Positions 47,741 through 63,268 of a stretch of 64,000 nt of DNA are shown here, piece by piece. Origin of the DNA: Erwinia endophytica. Lineage in GTDB: Bacteria > Pseudomonadota > Gammaproteobacteria > Enterobacterales > Enterobacteriaceae. The stretch is from assembly GCF_009295515.1 (NCBI RefSeq), contig NZ_RQVV01000011.1, forward strand, positions 62,001-126,000, read 5' to 3'. The translations under genes were made by a program, and so were the position numbers. Below the pieces are notes generated by a model. The model did not search any database and was not told the DNA's origin. It saw nothing but the letters and a program-made list of their open reading frames with translations. Every line of letters starts with the position of its first letter. Position 1 is the first letter of the stretch.

Positions 47741-48691
47741 TCAGGCGATACCCAGCGCGTCCATGAACACTTTAATAATCTGATTAATCTTGCGCCCTTT
47801 TTTAATGATCAGGCAAAAGGGCGCGGTAATCTGCAATTCAGGTGGACCGAGAGCCCGCAACTTATTTTCGTTGACGTAACGTTGTGCATAATGCTCGGGC
47901 AGATAACCAATAAAATGGCCGGTCAGAATCAGCATCGCGACAGCTTCCACTTGCACCGCCTGAATGTTGCTTTCATTAAAGGCGAACAGCTTGTTACTGT
48001 GGCGATGGGTGACGTAAGTATGATTAATAATCCTCTGCTGTTTTAGTCGTTCCAGTGTAATCTTATTATGGTCTTCATTAAATAAAACATGCTCACAGCT
48101 ACAATATAAGCAGGATATTTCGTCATATATATTATAATAATCAAAATCACTTTTCTTTTCGTAAGCGGGAGCAATGGCGCAATTAAAACGTCCTTCGTTG
48201 AGTCCTTTTTCAATATCGTCAAGATGGGCGGTTTGCAGGCGAATGTTTACTTTTGGTGCAGCTATATGTAGCTGTTGCACAGCTTTGGTGACGGGGGACT
48301 GCGGGTCTGAAATGGTATTATCAACGACACTGAGGCTGAAGTCGCCCAGCAGTTCATTGCGGCTGTGATGCAGACGGTCACGGAAAGTATTTAGCGAGGC
48401 AAAAAGCTCCAGCGTGGCTTGATAGACTGTAATGCCGTAGGCGGTCAGTTCAAACCCTTCGCGGCCCCGACTGCACAGCGTCATCCCCAGGCGGATTTCT
48501 AAATCAGAGACTTGTTTACTGATCGTCGCCAGGCCGGTATTCAGTTCATGGCTGGCCGAGGTCAATCCACCGGCTTCCACCACGCATTTAAATACCCGTA
48601 ATAATTTCAGATCGACATTGTTAATGGATACTGAGGAATTATCCGTACGGGGATAATTCATGTTTCCCATATTGGAAACCTTACTTTCCAT
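47741..48691 (-). CDS. LysR-type regulator, probably of the lyase/transport operon
   Basis: A 316-residue LysR-family transcription factor. The winged-HTH covers about residues 25-85 (LKLLRVFKCVVEAGGLTSASHELNTGLATISKQVSDLEIRLG in one run; split here: SHELNTGLATISKQVSDLE is the recognition helix region). It is followed by the inducer-binding domain with FSLSVVDNTISDPQSPV. The gene is transcribed away from the argH-like gene across a 165-base intergenic region with an inverted repeat, the standard layout for a LysR activator and its target. The inducer is unknown. Confidence 0.88.
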   Translation of the reverse strand: MESKVSNMGNMNYPRTDNSSVSINNVDLKLLRVFKCVVEAGGLTSASHELNTGLATISKQVSDLEIRLGMTLCSRGREGFELTAYGITVYQATLELFASLNTFRDRLHHSRNELLGDFSLSVVDNTISDPQSPVTKAVQQLHIAAPKVNIRLQTAHLDDIEKGLNEGRFNCAIAPAYEKKSDFDYYNIYDEISCLYCSCEHVLFNEDHNKITLERLKQQRIINHTYVTHRHSNKLFAFNESNIQAVQVEAVAMLILTGHFIGYLPEHYAQRYVNENKLRALGPPELQITAPFCLIIKKGRKINQIIKVFMDALGIA

Positions 48692-48762
48692 AATAACTAT
48701 TCATCTCCGCAAGAAATGCAGTGAAAGTAAGAGTGAACCTGAAATAGCCGCTAATTACCAGA

Positions 48763-48794
48763 TAGTGATTGAAAATAACTTTTATTTATCACTA
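48763..48794. promoter_or_regulatory. Inverted repeat in the LysR/lyase divergent promoter region
   Basis: TAGTGAT (48763-48769) and ATCACTA (48788-48794) form a perfect inverted repeat with an AT-rich 18-base spacer. It lies centrally between the two divergent genes, so it is a good candidate operator for the LysR protein. Confidence 0.5.
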
Positions 48795-48856
48795 ACGCCA
48801 CAGTCAGATGTTTTTTTTATTCCTGCTCTGTGACGTTATGCCAGGAGAGATAAATT

Positions 48857-50284
48857 ATGTCTGATCGTGCCGATCGTTTATGGGGAGCCCGTTTTAAAAG
48901 CGCGCCTGCCGCCGCCTTAACCGCGCTATCGCGCAGTCCGGAACATTATTTTGCGCTGGCTCCTTACGATTTGGCCGGTTGCCGTGCACACGCCCATGAA
49001 CTTGAACGCGCAGGGTTACTGACCGCCGCAGAGACGGTGACGATGATCGCCGCGATTGACCAACTGGACGCGGATTACCGTGACGGGAAAGTAGCCCCGA
49101 TCGCGGCGGATGAGGATGTACATACTTTCATTGAGCGAGTGCTGACTGAACGGTTGGGGGCGCTGGGCGGCAAGTTGCGTGCCGGTCGTTCGCGCAATGA
49201 TCAAACTGTCAACGATTTGCGTCTCTATCTGCGTGATCATGTGCGGAAAATCACTTCCGCATTGCTGGCGTTACAGCAGGCATTGCTGGCGCAGGCTCAG
49301 CAGCACATTAACACCATCGCGCCAGGCTTTACCCATTTGCAACAGGCCCAGCCCATCGTGTTTGGTCACCAGTTGCTGGCGCACGCGCAGGCTTTTGCAC
49401 GGGATATTGACCGTCTGCAGGACTGGGATCGCCGTAGCGCTTTCTCACCGTTGGGGGCGGCGGCGATGGCGGGTTCGGCTATTGCCCGCCATCCGGAGCT
49501 TGCTGCGCAGGAACTGGGCTATCTGGGGGCGTGTGAAAACTCGATTGATGCTGTTGCCAGTCGTGATTACGTGGCGGAATTCCTGTTTATTACCAGCATG
49601 ATTGGCGTCAACCTGTCGCGTATCAGTGAAGAAGTCTGTTTGTGGACCTCCCGTCAATTTCGCTGGGTGGAAATCAGCGACAGCTACGCGACGGGGAGCT
49701 CGATCATGCCGCAGAAAAAGAATCCGGATATTGCTGAACTCACCCGTGGCCGTAGTGGTCGCCTGATTGGTAACCTGACCGCGATGCTTGCCACCATGAA
49801 GTCGCTGCCGCTTGCCTACAATCGCGATCTGAGTGAAGACAAACGCGGCGCGATTGATTCTGTCGACACGTTGTTGCTGGTTCTGCCGGCGATGGCTGGC
49901 ATGATTGCCACCATGAAGGTCAATGAGGCTGAATTGCTGAAGCAGGCGCCGGAGGGTTTCACCCTGGCGACCGAAGTCGCCGACTGGCTGGCGATGCGGG
50001 GCGTACCGTTTAAGGAAGCGCACGAAATCACCGGCAAGTTGGTGCAGTTGTGTGAATTCCATCAGCAGGGGTTGTCCGATTTGAGCGATGAGCAGTTGGC
50101 GGAAGTCGACACTCGCCTGACGGCGGACGTGCGCAGCGCCCTGACGCTGGAGGCGGCTATTCACTCTCGCGATGGTTTTGGCGGCACTGCGCCAGCACGC
50201 GTCAGTGAACAGATTACTCGCCTGCGGGAGCGCATGCAGCAGCACGCCGACTGGGTCAGCGCCTGGCAGGGGCCGCGTCTGTAA
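48857..50284 (+). CDS. Argininosuccinate lyase-family C-N lyase
   Basis: A 475-residue member of the aspartase/fumarase superfamily, ArgH branch. Landmarks are GGKLRAGRSRNDQTVNDL (110-116 RSRNDQ), the catalytic TH pair in GFTHLQQAQP (Thr159-His160), and the mobile signature loop GSSIMPQKKNPD with the catalytic Ser at about 281-282. In ArgH the enzyme splits argininosuccinate to arginine and fumarate; relatives split EDDS and iminodisuccinate. HLQQAQP replaces the HLQRAQP usual in ArgH. It heads an operon with an amino-acid importer, two NodB-like enzymes and an MmgE/PrpD protein, so a catabolic N-succinyl amino acid substrate is more likely than arginine synthesis. Confidence 0.85.
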   Translation: MSDRADRLWGARFKSAPAAALTALSRSPEHYFALAPYDLAGCRAHAHELERAGLLTAAETVTMIAAIDQLDADYRDGKVAPIAADEDVHTFIERVLTERLGALGGKLRAGRSRNDQTVNDLRLYLRDHVRKITSALLALQQALLAQAQQHINTIAPGFTHLQQAQPIVFGHQLLAHAQAFARDIDRLQDWDRRSAFSPLGAAAMAGSAIARHPELAAQELGYLGACENSIDAVASRDYVAEFLFITSMIGVNLSRISEEVCLWTSRQFRWVEISDSYATGSSIMPQKKNPDIAELTRGRSGRLIGNLTAMLATMKSLPLAYNRDLSEDKRGAIDSVDTLLLVLPAMAGMIATMKVNEAELLKQAPEGFTLATEVADWLAMRGVPFKEAHEITGKLVQLCEFHQQGLSDLSDEQLAEVDTRLTADVRSALTLEAAIHSRDGFGGTAPARVSEQITRLRERMQQHADWVSAWQGPRL

Positions 50285-50309
50285 TCGTTAATTCAACGCT
50301 GGAGGCGGC

Positions 50310-51188
50310 ATGAACACATCGCAACATTCTGGAGTCACGGGCAATCGGGGGACGGGCGAACCCTCTTACGATCTTAAACAGTATGAAGTCGTGCCAAAGC
50401 GCTATTACGGACGTATCACCGCCACCGTGGTGATCATCCTGCTGCTGGCGGCACTGGTTCACGCCTTCTCTCAGGGCAAAATTGAGTGGGCTTATGTCGG
50501 ACAGTTTTTTACCGCCAGGGCGATCCTTGATGGGGTCATTAACACCCTGGTGATGTCGATTCTGGCAATGGCGTTGGGGATTGTTTTTGGCGTGGTGGCG
50601 GCGATTATGTACATGTCACCCAATCCGGTGCTGCATTATCTCTCGCTAGTCTACGCCTGGGTTTTTCGCGGTACGCCGTTGATCCTGCAACTTTTGCTGT
50701 GGTTTAACCTCGCGCTGGTGTTTCCGACTATCTCGATCCCTGGCGTGTTTAGTGTGGAAACAGTCAATGTGATGACGCCGTTTGTCGCCGCATTGCTGGG
50801 ACTGAGTATCAACCAGGGCGCTTATACTTCCGAAGTGGTGCGCGCCGGGTTGCTGTCGGTCGATACCGGTCAATATGAAGCGGCGAAGTCGATAGGTATG
50901 CCACGTTTGCAGGCGTTGCATCGCATTATTCTGCCGCAGGCAATGCGGGTGATTTTGCCGCCGGTGGGCAATGAATTTATCAGCATGATCAAAACCACCA
51001 GTCTGGCGAGCATGATCCAATATTCCGAGTTGCTCTACAACACGCAGAACATCTACTACGCCAACGCGCGGGTGATGGAACTGCTGTTCGTGGCGGGCAT
51101 CTGGTACCTGATTATCGTCACCGTGCTGTCGTTCGGGCAAAGCCGTCTTGAACGTTATTTCTCTCGCGGCCAGCGCCGCCGTAACTAA
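50310..51188 (+). CDS. Polar amino-acid ABC transporter permease (first system)
   Basis: A 292-residue HisM/GlnP-type permease with an unusual N-terminal cytoplasmic extension of about 35 residues ([20 protein letters not shown]). Five or six hydrophobic segments follow. The ATPase-docking EAA loop is [21 protein letters not shown], preceded by [23 protein letters not shown]. It is the only permease in the operon, so it probably acts as a homodimer. It lies 25 bases after the lyase gene. Confidence 0.92.
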
Positions 51189-51199
51189 GGAGGATCGCG

Positions 51200-51964
51200 A
51201 TGAGGAATATCGTCCGTGCCGTTGAGGTGAACAAGTATTTTGACAATTTCCATGCCCTGAAAGACGTCAGTCTGGAGGTGAACTACGGCGAGGTGATGTG
51301 CATTCTCGGGCCATCAGGTTCGGGGAAAAGTACTTTCCTGCGTTGTATCAACCAACTGGAAAAGGTCGATCAGGGCGGGATCTGGATCGATAACGAACTG
51401 GCGGGGTACCGCATTGTCGGCAACAAACTGCATCCATTGAGTGACAGGCAAATCGCTCGCCAGCGTTTACAGACTGGCATGGTATTCCAGCGTTTTAATC
51501 TTTTTCCGCATAAAACCGCGCTGGAAAACGTCATCGAAGGGCCCTACCGTGTGCTGTTACGACCCAGGCGCGAAGCGACGGAAGAAGCGATGCAACTGCT
51601 GGACAGGGTTGGGCTGGCGAATAAAGCGCACGCTTATCCACAGTCGTTATCCGGTGGGCAGCAGCAGCGTGTGGCCATCGCCCGGGCACTGGCGATGAAA
51701 CCCAAACTGATGTTGTTTGATGAGCCGACGTCCGCCCTTGACCCGGAAATGGTCGGGGAGGTGCTGGCAGTGATGCGTACGCTGGCAAAAGAAGGAACCA
51801 CCATGATTGTGGTGACTCACGAAATGGGGTTTGCCCGCGAAGTGGCTAACCAGGTGGTGTTCATGGACGAGGGGCGCATCATTGAACGCGGTGCGCCTGA
51901 AGACATCCTGCTGAACCCGCAAAATCCGCGGATGCAGAATTTTATTTCCGCCATTCTTCTTTAA
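51200..51964 (+). CDS. Polar amino-acid ABC transporter ATPase (first system)
   Basis: A 254-residue GlnQ/HisP-type ATPase. Walker A is GPSGSGKST, the Q-loop segment is [19 protein letters not shown], the signature is LSGGQQQR, Walker B is [14 protein letters not shown], and the switch His is in [12 protein letters not shown]. Between Walker A and the Q-loop it has the longer insert ([20 protein letters not shown]) seen in some subgroups. The ATG follows AAGGAGG. It powers the permease upstream together with the binding protein downstream. Confidence 0.94.
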
Positions 51965-51982
51965 ATAACCAGGGGAATCCAG

Positions 51983-52804
51983 ATGAAAAAGATCGTACTT
52001 TCTGCCGTTGTAGCGACGGTATTGTTGCAATCCACCGCCTGGTCCGCTGAGTTACCTGCGGCCCTGAAAGCGAAAGGGGAAATGACGGTAGCGATAATGC
52101 CGAACTACCCGCCAATGGAGTTTAAAGATCCAGCCAGCAACACGCTGAGTGGGGTGGATGTCGATTTGGGCAATGCCATAGGGAACAAACTGGGCATCAA
52201 AATCAACTGGCAGGAAATTGCTTTTGAACAGATGGTGAATGCTGTCGCGACCAAACGAGTCGATATGGTGATGTCGGGGATGACCGATACCCCGGAGCGT
52301 CAGAAGGTGGTCAGCTTTATCGACTACTTCACCACCGGTCCGCAGTTCTACACCCTGGTCGCACGTAAAGACATCAATACTGCGTCCGATTTGTGCGGTA
52401 AAAAAGTCGGTACCAGCCGTCGTACTACCTTCCCGCAGGAAATTGCTAAATGGAGTCAGGCGAACTGCGAAGCTAAAGGAAAGCCCGCTATCGTGGTAGT
52501 TGGAGCGGAAGGTACTGCGGATGCCCGTACCCAGCTGCGTCAGCGGCGTCTGGATGGGGCGGTACAGGGCAGCGAAACGTTGCCATACGTGATGAATCTG
52601 GAGAAAAACACCTACAAGCCGTTGGATAAAGCCATTGCCGTGCAGTTCACCGGGATGGCGATCGACAAAAATGATCCGGCGCTGATCGCTGCCGTGCAGG
52701 GCGCGGTGAATGCGCTGATTGCTGACGGCACTTACGCGAAGATCCTGAATAAATGGGGACTGGGCGCTAACGCAGTCAAGACGGCGACCGTTAACGGGAA
52801 ATAA
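51983..52804 (+). CDS. Polar amino-acid ABC transporter substrate-binding protein (first system)
   Basis: A 273-residue periplasmic binding protein (SBP family 3). The signal peptide covers residues 1-22 (ending AWSA). Motifs include MPNYPPMEFKDPASNTLSGVDVDLGNAIG and DMVMSGMTDTPERQKVVSF. The ligand-contact region LCGKKVGTSRRTT precedes the second lobe; a Cys pair may be formed by Cys residues in DLCGKK and ANCEAK. The ligand is unknown; the motifs fit a cationic or polar amino acid derivative. Confidence 0.92.
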   Translation: MKKIVLSAVVATVLLQSTAWSAELPAALKAKGEMTVAIMPNYPPMEFKDPASNTLSGVDVDLGNAIGNKLGIKINWQEIAFEQMVNAVATKRVDMVMSGMTDTPERQKVVSFIDYFTTGPQFYTLVARKDINTASDLCGKKVGTSRRTTFPQEIAKWSQANCEAKGKPAIVVVGAEGTADARTQLRQRRLDGAVQGSETLPYVMNLEKNTYKPLDKAIAVQFTGMAIDKNDPALIAAVQGAVNALIADGTYAKILNKWGLGANAVKTATVNGK

Positions 52805-52806
52805 TC

Positions 52807-53655
52807 ATGATAGCACCTGACGTTCGCCCACGCTGGCCGCAGGGTAAGGTGGGCTGTATGGCGCTGGCTTTTGACCTTGACGGGCCAACCGGTGACGCGA
52901 TGCTCAACGGCACCATTTGGCAGAAACCGGAATATTTCACGTTTGGCGGCTACGGCCCATTTCGCGCACTGGGGCGGTTGCTGGATTTGCTTGAACAATA
53001 TGACCTTCCAGCCACTTTCTTCATCCCCAGTTGGGTGGTGGAGCAGTGGCCGCAACAGTGCGCCGCGATTGTGGAAAAAGGGCATGAGGTGGCGTACCAC
53101 GGTTATCGCCATGAATCTTTTTATGCTCTTAGCGGTGATGAGCAGCGTCAGGTGATGGAAAAATCACGCGCGATATTTTGGCAGCGGCTGGGCATCCGTG
53201 CCGAAGGTTTCCGAACCCCTTCGGGCGACTGGCATCAGGAAACCCCCAGCGTATTACTGGATGCGGGCGTGACTTACTCCAGCAGTATGCGTGGCGATGA
53301 TCGGCCTTATGCCATCAGCGTACCGGGTTATCAGCAGCCGTTGGTTGAGATCCCCGGTAAGTGGGAGATGGACGATTATGCTTCGCTGGCTTATACCCGT
53401 GAACCGAATTTCCCGCAGGGGTTGGATCGCACCGCCAGTTATGCGCTGACGCTGGATAACTGGTGCCGTGAATTTGATGGCGCGATGGACGAAGGTCTGT
53501 GCCTGACCACTTTATTTCACCCTAAAATCAGCGGTAAACCCGGGCGCATCCTGTTGCTTGAGCAATTTATCGCCCATATGCGCCAGCGGGATGTTTGGTT
53601 CGCCCGCTGCCGCGACGTCGCCCACTGGTATCTGCAGGAGCAGCGACATGACTGA
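52807..53655 (+). CDS. NodB-fold (polysaccharide-deacetylase-like) hydrolase A
   Basis: A 282-residue cytosolic NodB/CE4-superfamily protein with no signal peptide, unlike cell-wall deacetylases. It has the metal triad pattern: Asp in MALAFDLDGPTG (motif 1), His-Gly-Tyr-Arg-His in VAYHGYRHES (motif 2, H-x3-H), and RTPSGDW (motif 3, Arg-x-Pro-x-Gly). A late catalytic-type His is in LTTLFHPKISGKPGR. Such cytosolic proteins include allantoinase PuuE-type amidohydrolases, so the substrate may be a cyclic or acylated amino compound. It starts three bases after the binding-protein gene. Confidence 0.85.
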   Translation: MIAPDVRPRWPQGKVGCMALAFDLDGPTGDAMLNGTIWQKPEYFTFGGYGPFRALGRLLDLLEQYDLPATFFIPSWVVEQWPQQCAAIVEKGHEVAYHGYRHESFYALSGDEQRQVMEKSRAIFWQRLGIRAEGFRTPSGDWHQETPSVLLDAGVTYSSSMRGDDRPYAISVPGYQQPLVEIPGKWEMDDYASLAYTREPNFPQGLDRTASYALTLDNWCREFDGAMDEGLCLTTLFHPKISGKPGRILLLEQFIAHMRQRDVWFARCRDVAHWYLQEQRHD

Positions 53656-54529
53656 ACAGACTCGCTGGCCAGCCGGGCAGCAATCGGCGGTGGTACTGAC
53701 CATCGATTTTAACGATATTCATGGCATTCTGACCCAGACGCCTGCGGTGGCTGGCAGGGATAAGACTCTGTCAGTCTGGCGTTATGGTACGCTGCGCGGT
53801 GTTGATCGCTTGCTGGCGTTGATGGCCAGGAAAAATCTGCGAGCCACCTGGTGTTTACCCGCCATTGTGGCAGAAGAAAACCCAGCCATATTTGCCCGGG
53901 TGGTGGCGGCAGGACACGAGATTGCCGGTAGTGGCGAACGTCATCAAAACTTCGATACGCTGACCTTGCAGGAGCAGATTACCAGTGTTAAGCAAGGTTG
54001 TGCCCGGTTGCAGGCGGCTTGCGGGCATCCGGTGGTGGGCTTTCGCACACCCGCCGGACAATGGAAACCCGGTCTGGCTGAAGCGCTGGCCGCGGCAGGG
54101 ATCCGCTGGTCTTCCTCATGGCGTGGTGACGACTTACCCTATTTTCATCCGTCTACCCGGCTGGTGGAGTTACCGCTGCACTATGAACTGGAAGATGAAC
54201 CCTATTTCGCCTTCAATCTAAGTCCGGCAGTGCCGCCGGGGCAGTCACGAATTGCCTCGTATCAACAAACGCTGGAGAACCTCAAGCTGGATTTCCGCGG
54301 TTTTCACCGTTTTGGTTTGTGTTATGTACTGCGTCTTCATCCAGAAATCATCGGCACGGCAGGGCGAATTGGCCTGCTGAGTGAATTGCTGGACTTTATT
54401 ACCGGACAGCAACAGGTGTGGCTGGCGACAGCGGGAGACGTGGCGGACTGGTGGCAGACGCAGCCGGATAATGTCAGCGAACACCCGGCTGAAATCTTCC
54501 AGCGGCAGATTCAGGAGCAAAACGGATGA
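53648..54529 (+). CDS. NodB-fold hydrolase B, with altered metal motifs
   Basis: A 293-residue paralogue of the preceding NodB-fold protein, overlapping it by 8 bases. Aligning the two, motif 1 reads LTIDFNDIHG (the second Asp of FDLDG is Asn). Motif 2 reads IAGSGERHQN, so the first His of H-x3-H is Ser and only the second His stays. Motif 3 RTPAGQW and LRLHPEIIGTAGR are kept. It may have changed chemistry or be a non-catalytic partner of the first enzyme. ATG at 53648 follows AGGAG. Confidence 0.82.
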   Translation: MTEQTRWPAGQQSAVVLTIDFNDIHGILTQTPAVAGRDKTLSVWRYGTLRGVDRLLALMARKNLRATWCLPAIVAEENPAIFARVVAAGHEIAGSGERHQNFDTLTLQEQITSVKQGCARLQAACGHPVVGFRTPAGQWKPGLAEALAAAGIRWSSSWRGDDLPYFHPSTRLVELPLHYELEDEPYFAFNLSPAVPPGQSRIASYQQTLENLKLDFRGFHRFGLCYVLRLHPEIIGTAGRIGLLSELLDFITGQQQVWLATAGDVADWWQTQPDNVSEHPAEIFQRQIQEQNG

Positions 54530-55884
54530 ATCAGGCAATGCAGCAACTGGCGCGCTTTATCGCGCAAACCCGTTTCAGTGATCTGCCTGCGTCGCTGGTC
54601 GAACGGGCGCAGCGGCATATTCTGGATACTTTCGGCGCCGCGCTGGCAGGCAGCGACAGCCCGATAACGCAGGCAGTACGGCAAACGGTGATTGCTGAAG
54701 GGGGTACGTCGCAGGCGGTGGTGTGGGGCAGCGCATTGCAAACCAGTCCGCGAAATGCGGCGTGGCTCAATGGTATCGCTGCGCATATGTATGAGTTGGA
54801 TGATACCGGCGGTTGCGATCATTCCGGCGCGGTGGTGTTGCCGGCGGTTCTGGCGGCATTGCCCTTGTGCGATGGGCCGGTTTCTGGTCAGCATTTAATC
54901 AGCGCGGTGGTGTTGGGCTATGATGTCGGGCGTCGTGTGCTGGAAGCCTGTGGCGGTTACGCGCCGCATAACGAGGCGGGCTGGCATTCTACCGCCACCT
55001 GTGGGGTGTTTGGCGCCGCTGCGGCAGTCGCAGCGTTGCTGCGGCTCAGTGAACAGCAGATTGTGCAGGCACTGGGGATTGCCGCCAGCTTCAGTAGTGG
55101 GGTATGGGGCTTTATCCACGATGGTTCTCAGAGTAAAAAATTGCATGCCGGACGGGCGGCGGAAGGGGGATTGTTGGCGGCGATGCTGGCGGCAAACGGT
55201 ATCACGGGTGCCTCACAAACCTTTGAAGATGTGTGGGGGGGATTCCTGAAAACGTTCGCGCCGCTCACCAGCCAGCCAGCGGCACTGACTGCCGGATTGG
55301 GGGAGGTCTGGAAGCTGAACCGTTGTTCGATTAAACCCTACGCCTCCTGCCGGGGGACGCATTCGGCGATTGATGCTATTGGTCTGTTGATGGATGAACA
55401 GCACTGTTCAGCCGATCAAATAGCGGGAATTCATGTCTGGCTCAATCCGTTCCTGCTGGAGATGTGCGGCAATACCGACAGGCAAAGCCTGGCTGCCGCG
55501 CAGATGAGCCTGCCGTATGCACTGGCGGCGCGGGTGGTGTTTGGCCATGCCGGGTTGGATGCTTATGACGCTGATCGACGGGCCAGCGCGGCAATCAGCG
55601 CCATGCTGCCACGCATTACGGTGCACATCGATCCTGAGCAGAGCAGTAACGACGAACCGATAGTCGAGCTGGAAACGATCAGCGGTCAGCGTTGGCGCAG
55701 GCAGGTGACTGTGCCGCTGGGCTCACCACAAAATCCGCTCAGCGATGATGCCCTGGTAGCAAAATTTAATCGACTGGCAGCGCGAGTCATGGCGGCAGAG
55801 CAGTGCGACCTGTTGCGTGAGTGCTGCCTGGGATTAGCCGGGATCGCTGATATTTCGATGCTGGTCAGGTTGTTGCAAAAGTAA
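54526..55884 (+). CDS. MmgE/PrpD family protein
   Basis: A 452-residue MmgE/PrpD protein. Members include 2-methylcitrate dehydratase, cis-aconitate decarboxylase and iminodisuccinate epimerase. Visible family segments are LDTFGAALAGSDSP, MYELDDTGGCDHSGAVVLPAVLAA (Asp/His-containing active-site region), GWHSTATCGVFGAAAA, DGSQSKKLHAGRAAEGG and KPYASCRGTHSAIDA. It overlaps the preceding gene in ATGA and ends the seven-gene operon, followed by a hairpin. With the C-N lyase as first gene, an epimerase role (as in iminodisuccinate breakdown) is a specific but unproven possibility. Confidence 0.88.
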   Translation: MNQAMQQLARFIAQTRFSDLPASLVERAQRHILDTFGAALAGSDSPITQAVRQTVIAEGGTSQAVVWGSALQTSPRNAAWLNGIAAHMYELDDTGGCDHSGAVVLPAVLAALPLCDGPVSGQHLISAVVLGYDVGRRVLEACGGYAPHNEAGWHSTATCGVFGAAAAVAALLRLSEQQIVQALGIAASFSSGVWGFIHDGSQSKKLHAGRAAEGGLLAAMLAANGITGASQTFEDVWGGFLKTFAPLTSQPAALTAGLGEVWKLNRCSIKPYASCRGTHSAIDAIGLLMDEQHCSADQIAGIHVWLNPFLLEMCGNTDRQSLAAAQMSLPYALAARVVFGHAGLDAYDADRRASAAISAMLPRITVHIDPEQSSNDEPIVELETISGQRWRRQVTVPLGSPQNPLSDDALVAKFNRLAARVMAAEQCDLLRECCLGLAGIADISMLVRLLQK

Positions 55885-56293
55885 TGCGTACTTTCCCGCA
55901 GAACTGGCGGGAAAATAAAAAAGGGTCAATCACACAATGTCATTCATGTAAGAAATACCGGCCCGAGTCTCCGGGCCTTTAACAGGAATGTATGGCTAAT
56001 AAAACAAGCAGTTATCCCACCTCTGCCGTCCCCTTAAACGCCGGTTCCGCCCCCCAGAGACAGCCCTCCGTTAAAATGAGGGGATTAACCGTGGGGAGAT
56101 TGGACGCCATGGCAGAGGTATATTCCTGGAAAGAGCCAAAGCAGCCCTTCGCTCACTCAGTTTTTCTCCCGATAACCGGAAAAAGGTTATCGGGTTGCCA
56201 TCCGTCAGAATTATTCCGGTTGCCCAATAATTCTCTATGACACAGACGATGAAATCGTCCAGATTATGCGGACGCTGCCCGCATCGTACTCTC
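55885..56293. other. Intergenic region after the lyase operon
   Basis: It contains the operon terminator and a set of short open frames. One frame (55992-56240, 82 codons, starting MANKTSSYPTSAVPL) has no recognisable sequence. In another, GYRVAIRQNYSGCPIILYDT continues to DDEIVQIMRTLP and looks coding-like but lacks a start. It may be the decayed end of a lost gene; I cannot identify it. Confidence 0.35.
55960..55980 (+). terminator. Intrinsic terminator of the lyase operon
   Basis: GGCCCG pairs with CGGGCC with loop AGTCTC, followed by TTT, 76 bases after the MmgE/PrpD stop; a second stem TTTCCCGC/GCGGGAAA lies just before at about 55892. Confidence 0.65.
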
Positions 56294-57622
56294 TTACATC
56301 ATCTGTGGTTCGCGGATGGCATTCCCCTTAGCAAACCGCGCCAGACGATATGGCGTAACATCAGTATAAGGTCGGCTGTTAGTGAGAATTTGTCCGCACA
56401 ATTCACCCGCGCCGGGACCAATGCCAAAGCCATGTCCGCTGAAACCAGCGGCAATAAACAGTCCGGGAACATTATCCATTTCATCAATCACCGGGACTAA
56501 ATCCGGCGTGGTATCAATCCATCCCCCCCAGGCATGATCGATAGCAATTCCTTTGAGATCGGGAAACAGTTCAACCAGCGTTTGCAGCGCTTCGCGTAAA
56601 ATTTGTTTATCCGGGGCCGGATCCAGCACGCGAATTTTCTCAAAGGGCGAGACTTGATCATTAGACCAGGTGCCTGCGGCTTCAGGGCCGCTAAAGAAGG
56701 ATCCGTTGAGGCGGACTTTCAATTGCTTGGCGATATTGCTGCGATACATGGGATAAAATTTTGCCGCATAACGGATATTCTGCGGCGCTAAATTCAGGCG
56801 GCCACGGCCAGGGATTGCCACGGTGTAGCTGCCATCGAGACGCCGTCTGATGCACAGGTTCGGCGTACTCAGGCAACCGTTGAGCACTTCTGGTGCCGCA
56901 GTGGTTTTAAACGCCGTTCCCAGAATGTTGGCGCTGGGCAGTTCAATGCCATACTGTTTACAGAAACGTGAACTCCATGCGCCGCCGCAGCAGATAACCC
57001 GGTTGGTTTTAACCAGGCCGCGTTCTGTCCAGACGCCAGAGACGCGTCCGGCGCTGATGTCCAGACCGCGCACCGCACAGTGTTGATGAATAAATGCCCC
57101 TCGTTGCTGTGCGCCGGTTGCGATCGCGGGAGCGGCCATCGACGGTTCAGCGCGACCGTCGGTCGGTGACCAGACGCCGCCCAGCCACGGTAAACGATCG
57201 CCAATGCGTTGCTGTGCTTCACTTGCCGTGAGCAGGTGGCTGACAAATCCCAGTTGCTTTGCCTGCGCGCCCCAGGCTTCCCATTTGGCAAGATCAGCTT
57301 CATTCAGCGTGCCATAAGCAATACCATGACGGCGAAAACCAAGGTCAAGCCCGGTCTCCTTACCCAATTCTTCCCAGCGTTGCAGGCTGCGCATCGCCAT
57401 AGGTAGTTCATACAGATCGCGATTCTGTTGCCTTACCCAGCCCCAGTTGCGGCCTGATTGCTCTCCCCCGATGACGCCTTTTTCAAACAACGCTACTGAC
57501 ACCCCGCGTTTTGCCAGTTCATAGGTGACAGAGGTACCAATGATACCGCCGCCGATGACCACAACATCAACCTCTTCGGGAAACGTAGCGTTATCGGTTA
57601 CAGCATTAACTTTTATACGCAT
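56294..57622 (-). CDS. FAD-dependent amino-acid/amine oxidoreductase (DAO family)
   Basis: A 442-residue FAD enzyme of the D-amino-acid-oxidase (DAO) superfamily. The Rossmann motif VVVIGGGIIGTSVTYELAKRG is at about residues 20-40, the next FAD motif is SGRNWGWVRQQNRDL, and the C-terminal FAD/substrate region is FIAAGFSGHGFGIGPGAGELCGQ. No signal or membrane segment. Relatives oxidise D-amino acids, glycine derivatives, gamma-glutamylputrescine (PuuB) or opines. It is upstream of and convergent with the lyase operon, and likely forms an operon with the XRE-cupin regulator behind it (44-base gap). Confidence 0.85.
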   Translation of the reverse strand: MRIKVNAVTDNATFPEEVDVVVIGGGIIGTSVTYELAKRGVSVALFEKGVIGGEQSGRNWGWVRQQNRDLYELPMAMRSLQRWEELGKETGLDLGFRRHGIAYGTLNEADLAKWEAWGAQAKQLGFVSHLLTASEAQQRIGDRLPWLGGVWSPTDGRAEPSMAAPAIATGAQQRGAFIHQHCAVRGLDISAGRVSGVWTERGLVKTNRVICCGGAWSSRFCKQYGIELPSANILGTAFKTTAAPEVLNGCLSTPNLCIRRRLDGSYTVAIPGRGRLNLAPQNIRYAAKFYPMYRSNIAKQLKVRLNGSFFSGPEAAGTWSNDQVSPFEKIRVLDPAPDKQILREALQTLVELFPDLKGIAIDHAWGGWIDTTPDLVPVIDEMDNVPGLFIAAGFSGHGFGIGPGAGELCGQILTNSRPYTDVTPYRLARFAKGNAIREPQMM

Positions 57623-57666
57623 TGACTGACCTTCCTGACAGATACGGTGACGAAAAGGGAATAAAT

Positions 57667-58272
57667 TCAGAGATGATATTCAGACGGAATATACATAATC
57701 CATACTATTCTGGCTGCGGTATCACTATGGTTAAAAATATTGTGTGGTAACTGACTGCTAAACTGGAAACTATCACCAGAAAAAAGCGGTGCAGCATCAT
57801 TGCCAATTTCCAGCGTCAATTCACCGTCAATGACCAGTCCCGCTTTTTCACCCATCCCCATCAACATTTCATCCGAACGAACACCGGGGGGAACCGTAAT
57901 GAACATGAACTGTACGTTGTGATCGCCAGATGGCGACAACATTTCTTTGGCTATACCGTATTTACCCACATTGAAATGCGGCCGGGCATGGCAGCGACGA
58001 ATATAATGTTCAGCCCCCTTGTGCAAGCGGGGCGTTTCTTCGAGAAACGCCGATAAGGGGACTTTCAGCACCAATCGTAATTGTTCCAACACTCTTACGG
58101 TAGGATTCGTCAGGTTACGTTCAATTTGACTAATTGCGCCGGCGGAAACATTCGCCTGACAGGCCAGTTCGGTGATGGTCATATTACGCGCCTTACGCAG
58201 TGTTTTCAGCCGTGAACCAATATCAGCGGCAAACACGTCCGGGTCAGTTTTCCAGTTAGGTATTTTTTTCAT
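57667..58272 (-). CDS. XRE-family regulator with C-terminal cupin
   Basis: A 201-residue transcription factor with an N-terminal XRE helix-turn-helix (RLKTLRKARNMTITELACQA, then NVSAGAISQIERNLTNPTVR) and a C-terminal cupin sensor (VIDGELTLEIGNDAAPLFSGDSFQFSSQLPHNIFNHSD). This is the PuuR/SutR build, used to sense amines or sulfur compounds. It lies between the FAD oxidase and the binding-protein genes, all on the minus strand. Two identical palindromes at the divergent promoters nearby (59133-59148, 59332-59351) are its best candidate binding sites. Confidence 0.88.
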   Translation of the reverse strand: MKKIPNWKTDPDVFAADIGSRLKTLRKARNMTITELACQANVSAGAISQIERNLTNPTVRVLEQLRLVLKVPLSAFLEETPRLHKGAEHYIRRCHARPHFNVGKYGIAKEMLSPSGDHNVQFMFITVPPGVRSDEMLMGMGEKAGLVIDGELTLEIGNDAAPLFSGDSFQFSSQLPHNIFNHSDTAARIVWIMYIPSEYHL

Positions 58273-58328
58273 TTAACACGATCCGTAAGCGGTGGCTCTT
58301 TATTTTATATCGCCGTCATACCTTATAC

Positions 58329-59096
58329 TTATGGCATTCCCCATTTGTTTTTAATTTTCTGTAAGGTTCCATCCGCTTTCATCTCTGTCAGGGCATGATT
58401 AATTTTAGCCAGTAAGGCGTCATTACCTTTTTTCACACCAAAAGCCATCGGTGAGATAGTCTGCGGTTTATAGTCGTCGACCACGTGCATGCCTTTTAAT
58501 CCACCGGCATTCTGCTGAGCTTTCAGAATAGGGTAATCATTCATCCCCACATTAATACGTCCCAGAGAAAGGTCTCGGGTCATATCCGCCGGGCTGTCAT
58601 AGACTTTCACTTCTTTAGCGATCCCGCTGGTCATCAGGCTTTGCGTATAGTCTGTTCCCGCCATACTGCCAACAATTTCACCTTTAAGATCTTGCCAGTC
58701 ATGATAGGTTTTTTTGTTATCATCCCGCACGACGATACCCGCGCCAAACGCGGTCACCGGTTGTGAAAAAGAAATGCGTTTTTCCCGTTCTTTTGTTGGG
58801 GTCATGCCGGCGACAATGAGGTCGATTTTACCGGCAATAACCGACTGGATCAGGGTCGAAAAAGGAATGGCGGTAAAGTTTACATCCAGATGCTGACGTT
58901 TAATCACCTCCGCCGCGACGTCTGGCATAAACCCTTCAATTTTTCCCGTTTGCGTATTGAGAAAGGTCGTTGGCGCGCTGGAAGGGGGCGAGCCTGCGGT
59001 CAGAACGGCAGACTGTGCGCTAAAACTGACCGCCGCAGCAAAACTGACCGCCAGACAGTAACAGCTGCTCAAAAATCGTGAACGCATGACAGACAT
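58329..59096 (-). CDS. Polar amino-acid ABC transporter substrate-binding protein (second system)
   Basis: A 255-residue SBP family 3 protein. After the start MSVMRSRFLSS (chosen because AGGAGAAAGTT precedes it; the longer frame start lacks this) a signal peptide runs to about residue 29 (ending AQSA). Motifs include FMPDVAAEVIKRQHL, DLIVAGMTPTKEREKRISFSQP and VGSMAGTDYTQSL. The permease and ATPase genes of this system are on the other strand across the divergent promoter region, so regulator, binding protein and membrane parts are probably co-controlled. Confidence 0.9.
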   Translation of the reverse strand: MSVMRSRFLSSCYCLAVSFAAAVSFSAQSAVLTAGSPPSSAPTTFLNTQTGKIEGFMPDVAAEVIKRQHLDVNFTAIPFSTLIQSVIAGKIDLIVAGMTPTKEREKRISFSQPVTAFGAGIVVRDDNKKTYHDWQDLKGEIVGSMAGTDYTQSLMTSGIAKEVKVYDSPADMTRDLSLGRINVGMNDYPILKAQQNAGGLKGMHVVDDYKPQTISPMAFGVKKGNDALLAKINHALTEMKADGTLQKIKNKWGMP

Positions 59097-59132
59097 AACT
59101 TTCTCCTGGATTATATACAACGGGGAAGGTAT

Positions 59133-59148
59133 TTTCATTATAATGAAA
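59133..59148. promoter_or_regulatory. Palindromic operator, copy 1
   Basis: TTTCATTATAATGAAA, a perfect 16-bp palindrome 37 bases upstream of the second binding-protein start. On the minus strand TTGACA and TATTAA (18-base gap) lie just before it, so a bound protein would block that promoter. Confidence 0.7.
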
Positions 59149-59331
59149 TTAATACTGCCACTATCAAGCTGCTGTCAATGTTTTATTTTTTAATTCAATG
59201 TGGGTTGTTATGCTGCCAATTCCTTTTATTTTATTGGATTAACTTATATTTATAACCAATTTATATGAAGCCGATAAGTAAAAGCTATTACCCTGGCGCG
59301 GTAATTTATTGACAGCGATTTGGCAAGAAAG

Positions 59332-59351
59332 ATATTCATTATAATGAATAT
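59332..59351. promoter_or_regulatory. Palindromic operator, copy 2
   Basis: ATATTCATTATAATGAATAT, a perfect 20-bp palindrome sharing the core TTCATTATAATGAA with copy 1. TTGACAGC at 59309-59316 gives a -35 on the plus strand, 17-18 bases before the operator, mirroring the other promoter. It probably controls the permease-ATPase transcript. Confidence 0.7.
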
Positions 59352-59504
59352 TCCGTTGATGCCGTGAAGAGTTTGCGTGATAAGTCAGCGACAGGTGAAG
59401 GCCCGATGCGATGATATCGGTCATTGATTCATGCCCAATGCAGCAGTTGCTTGCCGCATGACCGGAATATCAGGCAGGAAGAAGCCGTTGAACAGGAGAA
59501 GATA

Positions 59505-60155
59505 ATGGATTGGGGCAGTATTCATATTTATCTACCCTTTTTATTAAAAGGGGCTGAAATGACTATTTACATTACTATTCTGTCCCTGATCATCAGTACG
59601 CCTTTAGGGTTGTTATTCGCGGCTGCCAAAATGTGTCCCTGGCGAGTCATTTCCTGGCCAACAGCCACGGTGATTAACATTACGCGTGGTCTGCCGATGA
59701 TCGTGGTGCTGTTTTATATTTATTTTGTTTTTCCTGATATCGGCATAACGCTCACTTCTTTTGAGGCCAGTGTTATTGGTATCGCCTTTTGTTTCTCGAC
59801 CTATATTGCCGAGATATTTCGTGCCGGTATTGAGGCTGTCGATGGTGGCCAACTTGAAGCAGCGCGCGCGATGGGGATGAGCTTCAGTAAGGCCATGCGT
59901 CGTGTGGTTCTGCCCCAAGCTTTTCACATCGCGTTACCGCCCTACAGCAATACGCTGGTGATGATGCTGAAAGATTCCGCGTTGGCCTCAACCATTGCCG
60001 TTACCGAAATGACGCGTCAGGGGCAATTAATCGCCGCGTCGACATTTGACAATACCACCGTGTATACCCTGGTCGCATTGCTCTACCTGCTGATGAGTTT
60101 GCCATTAATGGCGCTGACGAAGCGGCTGGAAAAACGCCAGATCACAGGAAAATGA
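59505..60155 (+). CDS. Polar amino-acid ABC transporter permease (second system)
   Basis: A 216-residue HisM/GlnP-type permease with five hydrophobic segments. The EAA loop is [21 protein letters not shown], preceded by [23 protein letters not shown] at 59505 after AGGAGAAGATA was chosen; the frame's first Met lies 27 codons upstream without support. It pairs with the ATPase gene one base downstream. It differs clearly in sequence from the first-system permease, so the two transporters are not a recent duplication. Confidence 0.92.
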
Positions 60156-60156
60156 C

Positions 60157-60924
60157 ATGATTGAAATTAAGGGTGTTCATAAAAAATTTGCGCATGTTGA
60201 GGTGCTGAAAGGGGTGAATTTTACCGTCGCAGAGGGTGAAGTGGTTTGTTTGATTGGCCCGTCCGGTTCAGGAAAATCGACCCTGTTGCGTTGTATCAAT
60301 GGCCTGGAAAGCTACGAAGAAGGTGATATTTATGTCCTTGGGCAACGGGTGAATAACAAAGATAAGAATATTAATAATTTGCGAAGACAGATTGGTATGG
60401 TTTTTCAGCGCTTCAACCTCTTTCCACATCGTAGTGTGTTGGAAAACGTGATGGAAGGCCCGATACACGTTAACGGTGAACCGCGCAGTGTGGCGGAAAA
60501 ACGTGCCAAAGCGTTGCTCTCCATGGTCGGTCTGGCTGAAAAGTTCAATGCGTTCCCCGCTCAACTTTCAGGGGGGCAGCAACAACGCGTGGCGATTGCG
60601 CGGACCCTGGCGCTGCAACCGAAAGCGATTTTGTTTGATGAGCCAACCTCAGCGCTGGATCCCGAGTTGGTTGGCGAGGTATTGCAGGTTATGCGCACTC
60701 TGGCGGCGGAAGGCATGACCATGATTGTTGTTACCCACGAAATGCATTTTGCGCGTGAAGTGGCGGATCGGGTTTGTTTTCTGCACAGTGGGCTTATTGT
60801 TGAACAGGGCTCGGCAGAGCAGGTGCTGTTGCAACCACAGGAACTGCGTACCCAGGATTTTTTGCGCCGGGTCCTGGGCAGTGGTGGGGGAATGCCGCCT
60901 GACGGCGTGCAAACCTGTGCTTAG
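60157..60924 (+). CDS. Polar amino-acid ABC transporter ATPase (second system)
   Basis: A 255-residue GlnQ-type ATPase. Walker A is GPSGSGKST, the Q-loop region is [19 protein letters not shown], the signature is LSGGQQQR, Walker B is [14 protein letters not shown], and the switch His is in [12 protein letters not shown]. The C-terminus ([19 protein letters not shown]) is a short Gly-rich tail. It starts one base after the permease stop. It is followed by a convergent dehydrogenase gene and a hairpin. Confidence 0.94.
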
Positions 60925-60997: not shown

Positions 60998-62086
60998 TCA
61001 GGTCAGTTCAGCCGCCAGCGCTTCAATACGCGCAATGGCCTGATACAGCCCCTCGACGGTTACCGGCTCTGCCATATTCTCCATGTCTGGCGCATGAACG
61101 GATCCACGCACGATAACCTCCAGATCCGCTTCCGTTACGTCCGCAATCTCTGTCAGACTTAGCGGTACGCCACATTCCCGCGCCAGTTGCATCTCATGTC
61201 GTAGTTCTTCATCACTGCGTTGTTCCAGCGCCAGCAGGCACAGATTGCCGTAACCCACCAGCAGGCCATGACCGAACTCGCGGGTTTTATCGCAGAAAGT
61301 GAACCCTTCGTAGATAGCATGGGCCGCCGCCGCGTGCGCACCATTGCTCATCAGTGAGGTCAGTCCGGCAACGGTAAAGATCACATCCAGCACCTGATCC
61401 AGGTGATGATCCGGCAGCATGTTGCGTACCGCGGCACAGGCCTTCGCCCCGTGAGCGGCAATGATTTCATAACAGATCAGACTGTGCGCCAGTGACGAAC
61501 GGGCATTGGCATACAACGCCGGATGACGCTGACTGACGGCGCGAAACTCATACCACTTTGCCAGCGTGTCGCCCAGTCCCGCGGACAACCAGCGCAGGGG
61601 CGCTCTGGCCAGCAGTTCGCTGTCGATAATCACCGCGGCAGGCGCCTGGGGCAACGGGAAAATATCAAGGAAGTTACCGTTATCGTCATAGCGAATGCTC
61701 AGTGGCGTGACCGCAGAGCAGGTGGCGGCGATGGTCGGGATGGTTATGACCGGGATGTTATGTTCAGCGCCAACCGCCTTACAGGTATCCAGCGATTTGC
61801 CACCGCCCGCGGCAATAATCACGTCCACTTGCTGCGATGTCGCCAGTTCGCCCAGCCGGGCAATCTGCTGTAGAGAGGTCTCGCCACCAAACCATTCACT
61901 GCCTGACAAGGCAACGCCAGCATCGGCCAGTTGCGAGCGCACCAGGGGTTCGACGGCTTTCAGCGCCTGATGCCCGCCAATCAGCAGCGCGCGCTGCCCC
62001 AACTCACTACAAATTTCGCCGAGCTGATGTAACACCCCGGCACCCCGTAACACGCGGGCGGGAAAAACCAGATTTTGTTCAGACAT
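60998..62086 (-). CDS. Iron-containing alcohol dehydrogenase (HcxA/YbdH-like)
   Basis: A 362-residue group III metal-dependent dehydrogenase of the glycerol dehydrogenase branch. The NAD-binding segment is IIAAGGGKSLDTCKAVG, and TIPTIAATCSAVTPLSI is nearly as in E. coli HcxA (YbdH), a hydroxycarboxylate dehydrogenase that reduces 2-oxoacids. Metal ligands are expected in GLGDTLAKWYEF (Asp) and the two His of AAAHAIYEG and EFGHGLLVG. The start MSEQNLVFPARVLRG was preferred to an ATG 31 codons upstream. The physiological substrate is not known. It lies downstream of the ureohydrolase gene on the same strand. Confidence 0.85.
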   Translation of the reverse strand: MSEQNLVFPARVLRGAGVLHQLGEICSELGQRALLIGGHQALKAVEPLVRSQLADAGVALSGSEWFGGETSLQQIARLGELATSQQVDVIIAAGGGKSLDTCKAVGAEHNIPVITIPTIAATCSAVTPLSIRYDDNGNFLDIFPLPQAPAAVIIDSELLARAPLRWLSAGLGDTLAKWYEFRAVSQRHPALYANARSSLAHSLICYEIIAAHGAKACAAVRNMLPDHHLDQVLDVIFTVAGLTSLMSNGAHAAAAHAIYEGFTFCDKTREFGHGLLVGYGNLCLLALEQRSDEELRHEMQLARECGVPLSLTEIADVTEADLEVIVRGSVHAPDMENMAEPVTVEGLYQAIARIEALAAELT

Positions 62087-62311
62087 GCTGACTTTCGCCT
62101 CAGTAGTTCGGCGCATTGCGCCGTGATTGCCTTGATACGTCAGGTTGCCGGAGGTTGACGGTGCGAACGCTTCCCTCACTGCCTTGAGTGAGCCGCCGGG
62201 GATGGATGCTGAGCAGTCGATTCAGCCGGTCGGTTCGACTCCCCAGGGCTGGCGCTGCCCAACCCGTTTTTAGCGTTTTGTCCGGTAACCTGCATGGATC
62301 AGGCGGTGATT

Positions 62312-63268
62312 TTAATTTACTCCGGGTAACACACAGAGGATCTCATACAGAATATTGGCTGCCAATTGGGACGTGGTGCCGCTGATATCGTAAGGCGGCG
62401 AGACTTCGACCAGATCGGCGCCAATCAGATTCAGTCCCCGGCAACCGCGTACGATTTCCAGGCCCTGTATTGATGTCAGGCCGCCAACTTCCGGGGTACC
62501 GGTTCCGGGCGCCCAGGCCGGATCGAAACTGTCGATATCATAAGAAAGATAGACCGGCCCGTCTCCCATTCGCTGGCGTACCTCGGCCATCAGCGGTGTC
62601 ATCGACTGGTACCAGCATTTTTCCGCCGGGATCAGATTGAAACCCTGATCTACGCCCCACTGGAAATCTCCGGCTGCGTAGCCCTGCGCTCGCTGACCAA
62701 TCTGCACCACGCGTTGCCGGTCCAGCAGGCCTTCTTCCACCGCACGGCGGAAGGTCGTGCCGTGAGCAATTTTTTCACCAAACATTTCATCATTGGTGTC
62801 GGTGTGTGCATCGACATGGATTAACCCCACGGGACCCTGTTTTTTCACCAACGCTCTTAAGATTGGCAACGTCAGGGTGTGATCGCCGCCCATCGTCAGC
62901 GGCACCAGCGGAAAGGCGTTCAGCCGACTGTAATAGTCCTCAATAATTTGCAGCGACTTATGCAAATTATAGGGGTTGATCGGCACATCGCCGAGATCAG
63001 CCACGCGCAGGGCATCGAATGGCGCTGCGCCGGTCGCCATATTATAGGGGCGGATCATCACTGAATCAGCCCGGATGGCCCTTGGCCCATAGCGGGTTCC
63101 GGAACGTTGCGAAGTGCCGATATCCAGCGGAATACCGATGAAAGCGGCATCCAGCCCATCGGGTTGATCGACTGCTGGCAGACGCATCATCGTGCTGCGA
63201 CCGGCAAAGCGAGGCATGTCATTAGCGCTTTGCGGCTGTGGAAAAGGGGAAGCGCGATCAGAATCCAT
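62312..63268 (-). CDS. gbuA: Ureohydrolase, guanidinobutyrase-like (agmatinase family)
   Basis: A 318-residue binuclear-manganese ureohydrolase. The metal motifs are MGGDHTLTLP, HVDAHTDTND (DAHxD) and SYDIDSFDPAW (SxDxDxxDP), followed by GTGTPEVGGL. Its length, the NDMPRFAG N-terminus and the RPYNMATGAAPFDALRVADLGDV-type middle match Pseudomonas guanidinobutyrase GbuA more closely than agmatinase SpeB. The expected reaction is 4-guanidinobutyrate to GABA and urea; guanidinopropionase is an alternative. A LysR gene is divergent from it, as gbuR is from gbuA in Pseudomonas. It probably lies in a transcript with the dehydrogenase. Confidence 0.8.
   Translation of the reverse strand: MDSDRASPFPQPQSANDMPRFAGRSTMMRLPAVDQPDGLDAAFIGIPLDIGTSQRSGTRYGPRAIRADSVMIRPYNMATGAAPFDALRVADLGDVPINPYNLHKSLQIIEDYYSRLNAFPLVPLTMGGDHTLTLPILRALVKKQGPVGLIHVDAHTDTNDEMFGEKIAHGTTFRRAVEEGLLDRQRVVQIGQRAQGYAAGDFQWGVDQGFNLIPAEKCWYQSMTPLMAEVRQRMGDGPVYLSYDIDSFDPAWAPGTGTPEVGGLTSIQGLEIVRGCRGLNLIGADLVEVSPPYDISGTTSQLAANILYEILCVLPGVN

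Follow-up and report, generated by a model that had tools for sequence, protein, structure and literature searches.

The window, by which we mean the whole 64,000-nucleotide stretch of Erwinia endophytica contig NZ_RQVV01000011.1 analyzed here, contains a seven-gene operon that encodes, in order, an ArgH-superfamily lyase, the permease, ATPase and binding protein of an ATP-binding cassette (ABC) importer, two NodB-fold proteins (NodB-A and NodB-B) and an MmgE/PrpD-family protein (hereafter MmgE); a gene for a LysR-family regulator faces it (Table 1). The seven genes constitute a single conserved operon for import and breakdown, catabolic in design. We propose, with a confidence that stops somewhat short of even, that it would import an N-succinyl guanidino acid, that the NodB pair would open the ring of this compound, that MmgE would epimerize it and a re-tuned argininosuccinate lyase (ArgH) split it, and that a linked guanidinobutyrase would finish its breakdown. 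Gene identities were taken from the list of open reading frames (ORFs) and from Pfam and NCBIfam profile matches, which bear out the gene order and facing regulator given in an initial annotation made from the sequence alone. The gaps between consecutive ORFs from the lyase to NodB-A are 25, 11, 18 and 2 bases, in keeping with the 25 or less first reported. That annotation also spoke of several ATGA and 8-base overlaps; both kinds exist, but there is one of each, an 8-base overlap between NodB-A and NodB-B and a 4-base (ATGA) overlap between NodB-B and MmgE. Its end point for the operon, 55981, needs correction: MmgE, the last of the seven, stops at 55884, with 55981 lying just beyond a downstream hairpin (55960-55977).

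To follow the gene set into other genomes, as the initial annotation had suggested, genome contigs were scanned with a NodB-A alignment profile. This confirmed 315 NodB-A relatives, the best 80 of which were kept as loci (59 Pseudomonas and 21 Enterobacterales by record title); the nearest named relatives by NodB-A identity are Pantoea sp. BAV 3049 (94%) and Erwinia typographi (92%). The lyase, the three importer genes and both NodBs are present together in 74 of the 80 loci, and the remaining six (L022, L031, L038, L052, L054 and L084) run into a contig end; in L019 and L035 the cut falls inside the lyase. MmgE is matched over half its length in 61 of the 74 loci with these core genes, the 13 without it all being Pseudomonas, and a LysR match lies on the opposite strand in 72/80. 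A major facilitator superfamily (MFS) gene follows the operon, after MmgE or NodB-B, in 58/80 loci, again all Pseudomonas (for example L056:13053-14276, of Pseudomonas fluorescens FW300-N2E3; Pfam check done on two of the 58). The trait is a rare one: among 398 evenly drawn Pseudomonadota genomes NodB-A occurs in seven, that of the window included, and in six of these the seven genes lie on one piece, the locus in the seventh (G130) being cut by a contig end; among 295 genomes of the window's order it occurs in two, again counting its own. The same gene set is found on an annotated plasmid of Burkholderia stagnalis and recurs on alphaproteobacterial plasmids. Actinomycetota, too, have NodB-A relatives. 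Variants were also found: lyase, ABC genes, MmgE and a single NodB in Sinorhizobium meliloti, Shinella and Chelatococcus; a set without MmgE in Rhizobium CC-CFT758; lyase and ABC genes only in Pseudorhizobium (L136); and a Paracoccus locus (L092) with no lyase in the stretch read. The gene set is thus an accessory cassette whose genes stay together in bacteria associated with plants and soil. The variant loci make the lyase and importer look like its core and the NodB and MmgE genes like added steps, the Paracoccus locus being the exception.

The lyase is a relative of ArgH and is distinct from the ArgH of its host. It scores 523 bits on the NCBIfam argH profile (TIGR00838, cut-off 279.5), and the genome carries a separate ArgH (G000:C26:7065-8426) with 693 bits; each of the six further operon-bearing genomes checked (G377, G130, G324, G249, G308 and G051) likewise has another, higher-scoring ArgH, making 7/7. 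The nearest solved structure is Mycobacterium tuberculosis ArgH (6iem, 487 bits, rank 1), whereas 6g3d reaches 200 bits at rank 17; 6g3h, identical to it in sequence, is named an ethylenediaminedisuccinate (EDDS) lyase in a passage of PMC12363623. In a tree of 50 rows the operon lyases fall into two clades, the first with 22 operon rows as sister to actinobacterial ArgH (support 100/99) and the second with four alphaproteobacterial operon rows as sister to Pseudomonas/Burkholderia ArgH (98/97). The tree indicates that the operon acquired its lyase twice, from separate ArgH lineages. Placing the lyase in such a tree had been proposed at the outset; the enzyme proved not to be EDDS-lyase-like and groups with ArgH, the operon lyases forming two clades of their own, and the genome has a second argH. 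In L094, L095, L096 and L109 the lyase is of a different ArgH lineage and stands after MmgE, not first, a gene replacement within the cassette. Genome G249, whose operon has its own lyase, carries a second lyase of the operon type (L134, G249:C66:89288-90646).

We compared active-site residues, in the numbering of duck delta-2 crystallin, after dropping six duplicate rows (L128-L133) and three distant ones (L142-L144), which left 21 ordinary ArgHs, 22 clade-1 and four clade-2 lyases; L138 and L145 were counted as ordinary by tree place and context, and L134 as operon-type without its context being read. Residues T161, H162, S283, K289, N291, N116 and R238 are kept in all 74 operon lyases compared, the window's included; we take these to be the catalytic and fumarate-side residues, the role of every one but H162 being assumed. 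Thus the catalytic His/Ser, Lys, Asn and Thr and the fumarate side are shared with M. tuberculosis ArgH and duck delta-2 crystallin, members of the same fold family. In contrast, Q328 and D33, present in 21/21 ordinary ArgHs, are changed in 22/22 clade-1 lyases (kept in 4/4 of clade 2), E332 is changed in 26/26 operon lyases, and S29 and Y323 are changed in 4/4 clade-2 lyases, the last three positions being invariant in 21/21 ordinary ArgHs. Clade 1 therefore departs from ordinary ArgH at 33, 328 and 332 and clade 2 at 29, 323 and 332, in both cases in a context of import and catabolism. The changes fall into two segments, around 29-33 and 323-332. Positions 29, 33, 323, 328 and 331 presumably form the arginine-binding end of ArgH. 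The lyase is likely a re-tuned ArgH in which the fumarate-side residues were kept and the presumed amino-acid end was altered. Separate host ArgHs, tree and residue changes led us to reject a plain duplication of ArgH. The earlier description of an operon of importer and enzyme genes around an ArgH-family lyase is supported; the operon is conserved, and its lyase retains the residues for fumarate formation and differs from the biosynthetic enzyme of the host.

The binding protein, too, has changed. In an alignment of 94 sequences of its family the Arg that binds the carboxylate is kept, a further Arg is conserved (in SR.T), and a QG.ET motif takes the place of the alpha-ammonium Asp, a position altered in at least 95% of the sequences. 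We assume here that Arg and Asp hold the carboxylate and alpha-ammonium groups, respectively, as in family-3 amino-acid binders; the pair that would mark an alpha-amino-acid binder is incomplete in this protein. The kept and extra Arg together with the lost Asp would suit a multiply carboxylated ligand that lacks a free amino-acid head. A departure of both lyase and binding protein from ordinary amino-acid recognition is thereby supported at the level of residue changes, insofar as the assumed residue roles hold. An AlphaFold2 model of the binding protein (mean pLDDT 69) was not used.

Of the two NodB-fold proteins, NodB-A has an intact metal triad and its paralogue NodB-B has lost the metal site. 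NodB-A keeps Asp25, His98 and His102 in 92/92 sequences, which we take to be the metal triad of NodB-fold (CE4-type) amidohydrolases; NodB-B has Asn for the Asp in 85/92 and keeps the first His in just 4/92. An AlphaFold2 model of NodB-A (pLDDT 82) is best matched by 3rxz, HP0310 and PuuE allantoinase (TM 0.77-0.85 by NodB-A length), and carbohydrate deacetylases score lower by that length (about 0.5-0.58), reaching as much as 0.81 when their own, shorter length is used. PuuE and the 3rxz-type proteins share with NodB-A the fold, length and architecture, and several relatives lie in small-molecule catabolic operons. Neither NodB is PuuE or NodB chitooligosaccharide deacetylase by name, and both identities were rejected: the two score 72.4 and 68.7 bits on TIGR03212 (cut-off 424.6) and 39.7 and 37.5 bits on TIGR04243 (cut-off 240). 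More distant NodB relatives, Thermomicrobium excepted, are often found near amidase, hydantoinase, creatininase-family, asparaginase or ureohydrolase genes. One of them (L162, genome G520) accompanies an Asp/Glu/hydantoin-racemase-family protein, an M20 deacylase, an M28 peptidase, a peptide ABC importer and ornithine cyclodeaminase, and may mark a sister pathway. On the P. aeruginosa plasmid pF061_1 (L140) agmatinase-family and NodB-fold genes adjoin, with short-chain dehydrogenase (SDR) and LysR genes, as another guanidino-NodB pair.

The nearest solved relative of MmgE is iminodisuccinate (IDS) epimerase (2hp0, 133 bits), which with cis-aconitate decarboxylase belongs to the same MmgE/PrpD family. 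Two catalytic bases, H99 and Y145, are proposed for IDS epimerase in a passage of PMC7347537. An Asp-Asp pair, H99, H154 and K204 are common to both proteins; Y145, however, is N149 in MmgE, and this Asn is invariant in 10/10 aligned operon MmgEs. An assignment as IDS epimerase by name was rejected, one of the two bases being missing. Y331 was considered as a possible replacement base. The lack of MmgE in 13/74 loci would fit an accessory epimerase, the activity that we predict for it.

The linkage of the operon to ureohydrolases acting on guanidino acids recurs, and is an observation new here that the initial annotation did not contain. The ureohydrolase downstream of the operon in the window gives 504 bits to guanidinobutyrase (3nio), the next match being 3-guanidinopropionase (3nip, 328 bits), and is close to characterized GbuA. 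A guanidinobutyrase gene lies 1.1-2.7 kb after MmgE, convergent with it, in nine of the 12 loci with Pantoea, Erwinia, Enterobacter or Mangrovibacter in their titles (9/80 overall; L112, on the same contig as L085, was counted once). In Agrobacterium tumefaciens, Rhizobium CC-CFT758 and Neorhizobium (L139, L173 and L174) a GpuA-like ureohydrolase gene immediately follows NodB, the A. tumefaciens protein being nearest 3-guanidinopropionase (285 bits); the A. tumefaciens NodB is 87.5% identical to that of Neorhizobium. The NodB-fold gene at L174:8096-8968 is recorded as a ribulose-phosphate 3-epimerase, apparently a misannotation. In the Paracoccus locus an arginase and an ornithine cyclodeaminase adjoin the operon. 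With four ureohydrolase-family genes in the whole of the window's genome, one such linkage might arise by chance, but repeated linkages are less easily explained in that way. Guanidinobutyrase and 3-guanidinopropionase act on guanidino acids that have no alpha-amino group, which fits the changes in lyase and binding protein. The operons share these linked ureohydrolase genes with GbuA and GpuA catabolism, in which we know of no NodB/MmgE/ArgH cassette.

Based on these results we propose that the ABC genes import an N-succinyl (N-1,2-dicarboxyethyl) guanidino acid, a substrate that would resemble argininosuccinate without its free alpha-amino-acid head, such as succino-4-guanidinobutyrate or a five-membered cyclic form; argininosuccinate itself forms cyclic anhydrides with five-membered rings (PMC6918381). 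NodB-A would open the ring of the cyclized compound, with NodB-B as its non-metal partner subunit, and MmgE would epimerize the succinyl carbon so that the stereospecific lyase can act. Cleavage by the re-tuned argininosuccinate lyase would give fumarate and a guanidino acid, from which the linked guanidinobutyrase would release urea and an amino acid, and the compound would serve as a nitrogen source. We infer every enzymatic step, the substrate class, the ring opening, the epimerization and the use for nitrogen from the gene content and residues described above. The proposed order, ring opener, racemase and stereospecific C-N cleaver, is that of the hydantoinase process (hydantoinase, hydantoin racemase and carbamoylase), which differs in that its three enzymes come from other families; the operon would release fumarate. 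A more specific version, a so far undescribed route for cyclized succino-guanidino acids in which a heteromeric NodB of metal and metal-less subunits opens an imidazolone-type ring, MmgE/PrpD corrects the stereocentre, and a twice-retuned ArgH and guanidinobutyrase complete the breakdown, seems to us doubtful.

Several observations weigh against the proposed pathway. Its substrate is a deduction throughout. The arginine-binding end of the lyase is a presumed assignment, and the clade-2 lyases keep Q328 and D33. Epimerase activity of MmgE is putative because Y145 is N149; in addition, MmgE has no match over half its length in the 13 Pseudomonas loci noted above, and is missing from Pseudorhizobium together with both NodBs. 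The stretches fetched for the 59 Pseudomonas loci, and for many other loci, yielded no ureohydrolase of the types named above. The guanidinobutyrase linkage in Pantoea and Erwinia may simply be an inherited neighbourhood, and Rhizobium etli CIAT 652 has the rhizobial ureohydrolase with no operon in the stretch read. Finally, a family-wide search in rhizobia found NodB relatives in 11/199 genomes, one of the 11 inside a full operon.

Searches of the openly licensed literature for the gene set or its S. meliloti locus tags turned up no account of the pathway. In an S. meliloti tolC mutant, according to parts of one report, argH2 (SMb21094) and SMb21095-21097 were down 10- to 21-fold by microarray, alongside nitrogen-control genes, and argH2 dropped 4.5-fold by reverse-transcription PCR (RT-PCR); its authors call the function of the SMb21095-21097 transporter unknown (PMC2912261). 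Judging from gene order, SMb21094-21097 would be the operon of our locus L100, and their fall alongside nitrogen-control genes speaks for the proposed pathway.

Four other explanations were weighed. That the operon scavenges argininosuccinate itself, along with its cyclic anhydrides, by import, NodB ring opening, epimerization and splitting to arginine and fumarate, is possible but unlikely. The lyase is a true ArgH relative by profile, structure match and tree, five-membered cyclic anhydrides of argininosuccinate do form, as stated in part of PMC6918381, and the clade-2 lyases keep Q328 and D33; however, these two residues, present in all 21 ordinary ArgHs, have gone from the 22 lyases of the main clade, and the binding protein has lost its alpha-ammonium Asp. 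The arginase and ornithine cyclodeaminase of Paracoccus would suit arginine as a product, although that stretch itself is without a lyase, and comparison of two linked ureohydrolases with solved structures put guanidinobutyrase and guanidinopropionase nearest to them.

One form of the initial annotation's proposal has an aminopolycarboxylate or chelator (EDDS, iminodisuccinate, or a fungal aspergillomarasmine-like or an opine-like molecule) split by an EDDS/IDS-type lyase after isomerization of the IDS-epimerase type. We regard this as improbable. The EDDS and iminodisuccinate lyases (Chelativorans, Agrobacterium BY6) share with the operon enzyme the ArgH superfamily and the cleavage of N-dicarboxyethyl groups to fumarate, but the operon lyase clusters with ArgH and its 487 bits to ArgH against 200 to the EDDS-lyase entry led us to reject an EDDS/IDS lyase assignment. 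We know of no NodB genes alongside those lyases. MmgE is indeed nearest to IDS epimerase and keeps H99, though not the second base, and a binding protein and lyase that no longer look specific for amino acids would accommodate a chelator as well as an N-succinyl guanidino acid; the linkage to guanidino-acid enzymes speaks against the former. Of the original proposal, then, the N-succinyl substrate gains partial support, and the chelator or EDDS/iminodisuccinate route does not.

It is quite improbable that the operon serves synthesis, with the lyase joining fumarate to an amine, and the product being tailored by NodB and MmgE and exported by the MFS protein of Pseudomonas. ArgH-superfamily reactions are, we assume, reversible, and the MFS gene follows in 58/80 loci; against this, amino-acid-type importer genes stand in all 74 loci that are not cut off, the linked ureohydrolases are degradative, and the S. 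meliloti genes are co-expressed with nitrogen-scavenging functions in the parts of PMC2912261 concerned. An ordinary second argH for arginine biosynthesis, beside an amino-acid transporter by chance, is very improbable: the score above the NCBIfam cut-off would allow it, but all seven genomes checked have a separate, higher-scoring ArgH, the operon lyases have changed residues, and some operons have exchanged their lyase for another ArgH lineage.

If the succino-guanidino pathway is correct, bacterial nitrogen scavenging would gain a hydantoinase-like pathway that releases fumarate, with an enzyme of arginine biosynthesis recruited twice into the same catabolic operon. It would also correct the annotation of many genes in Pantoea, Pseudomonas, Burkholderia and rhizobia that are now called "argininosuccinate lyase", "polysaccharide deacetylase" or "MmgE/PrpD", argH2 of S. 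meliloti pSymB likely among them, and would point to a nitrogen compound, perhaps derived from plants or fungi, not yet listed among rhizosphere nutrients. Should the heteromeric NodB route hold as well, an unrecognized pool of cyclized succino-guanidino acids would exist around plants.

Table 1. Features of the operon and its surroundings, in positions of the window
Feature	Position	Strand	Basis or remark
LysR-family regulator	47741-48691	-	Pfam HTH_1 and LysR_substrate; faces the operon
Divergent intergenic region, 165 bases	48692-48856	.	Between LysR gene and lyase
ArgH-superfamily lyase, altered at presumed amino-acid end	48857-50284	+	TIGR00838 523 bits; tree; residue comparison
ABC permease, polar-amino-acid-type	50310-51188	+	BPD_transp_1, HEQRo_perm_3TM
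ABC ATPase	51200-51964	+	Pfam; GlnQ/TcyN/EhuA-like, each under its equivalog cut-off
Family-3 solute-binding protein	51983-52804	+	SBP_bac_3; 94-sequence family alignment
NodB-A, NodB-fold PuuE/3rxz-type amidohydrolase, Asp-His-His triad intact	52807-53655	+	Pfam; residue comparison; AlphaFold2 model
NodB-B, NodB-A paralogue without metal site	53648-54529	+	Pfam; residue comparison
MmgE/PrpD-family protein, possible epimerase	54526-55884	+	Pfam; nearest solved relative; active-site comparison
GC-rich hairpin 3' of the operon	55960-55977	.	Scan scores - strand; weak T-run on +
Iron-alcohol/glycerol-dehydrogenase-like protein, conserved neighbour	60998-62179	-	Score under family cut-off
Ureohydrolase of guanidinobutyrase (GbuA) type, convergent and conserved as a neighbour in Pantoea/Erwinia-type loci	62312-63268	-	3nio 504 bits

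A simple scan of the 165-base divergent region gave no sigma-70-like match, and terminator-like sites in the region number seven against a shuffle mean of 10.1, promoter- and terminator-like sites overall being no more frequent than in shuffled sequence. Downstream, a block of ABC, FAD-oxidase and cupin-regulator genes (56294-60924) separates the operon from the dehydrogenase/guanidinobutyrase pair. In the 128 stretches searched, no match above 38% identity exists for the FAD-oxidase, regulator and binding-protein genes of this block. An iron-alcohol-dehydrogenase-like gene lies near the operon in 16/80 loci, and in L016, L017 and L018 (about 13300-14400) such a gene directly follows MmgE on the same strand.

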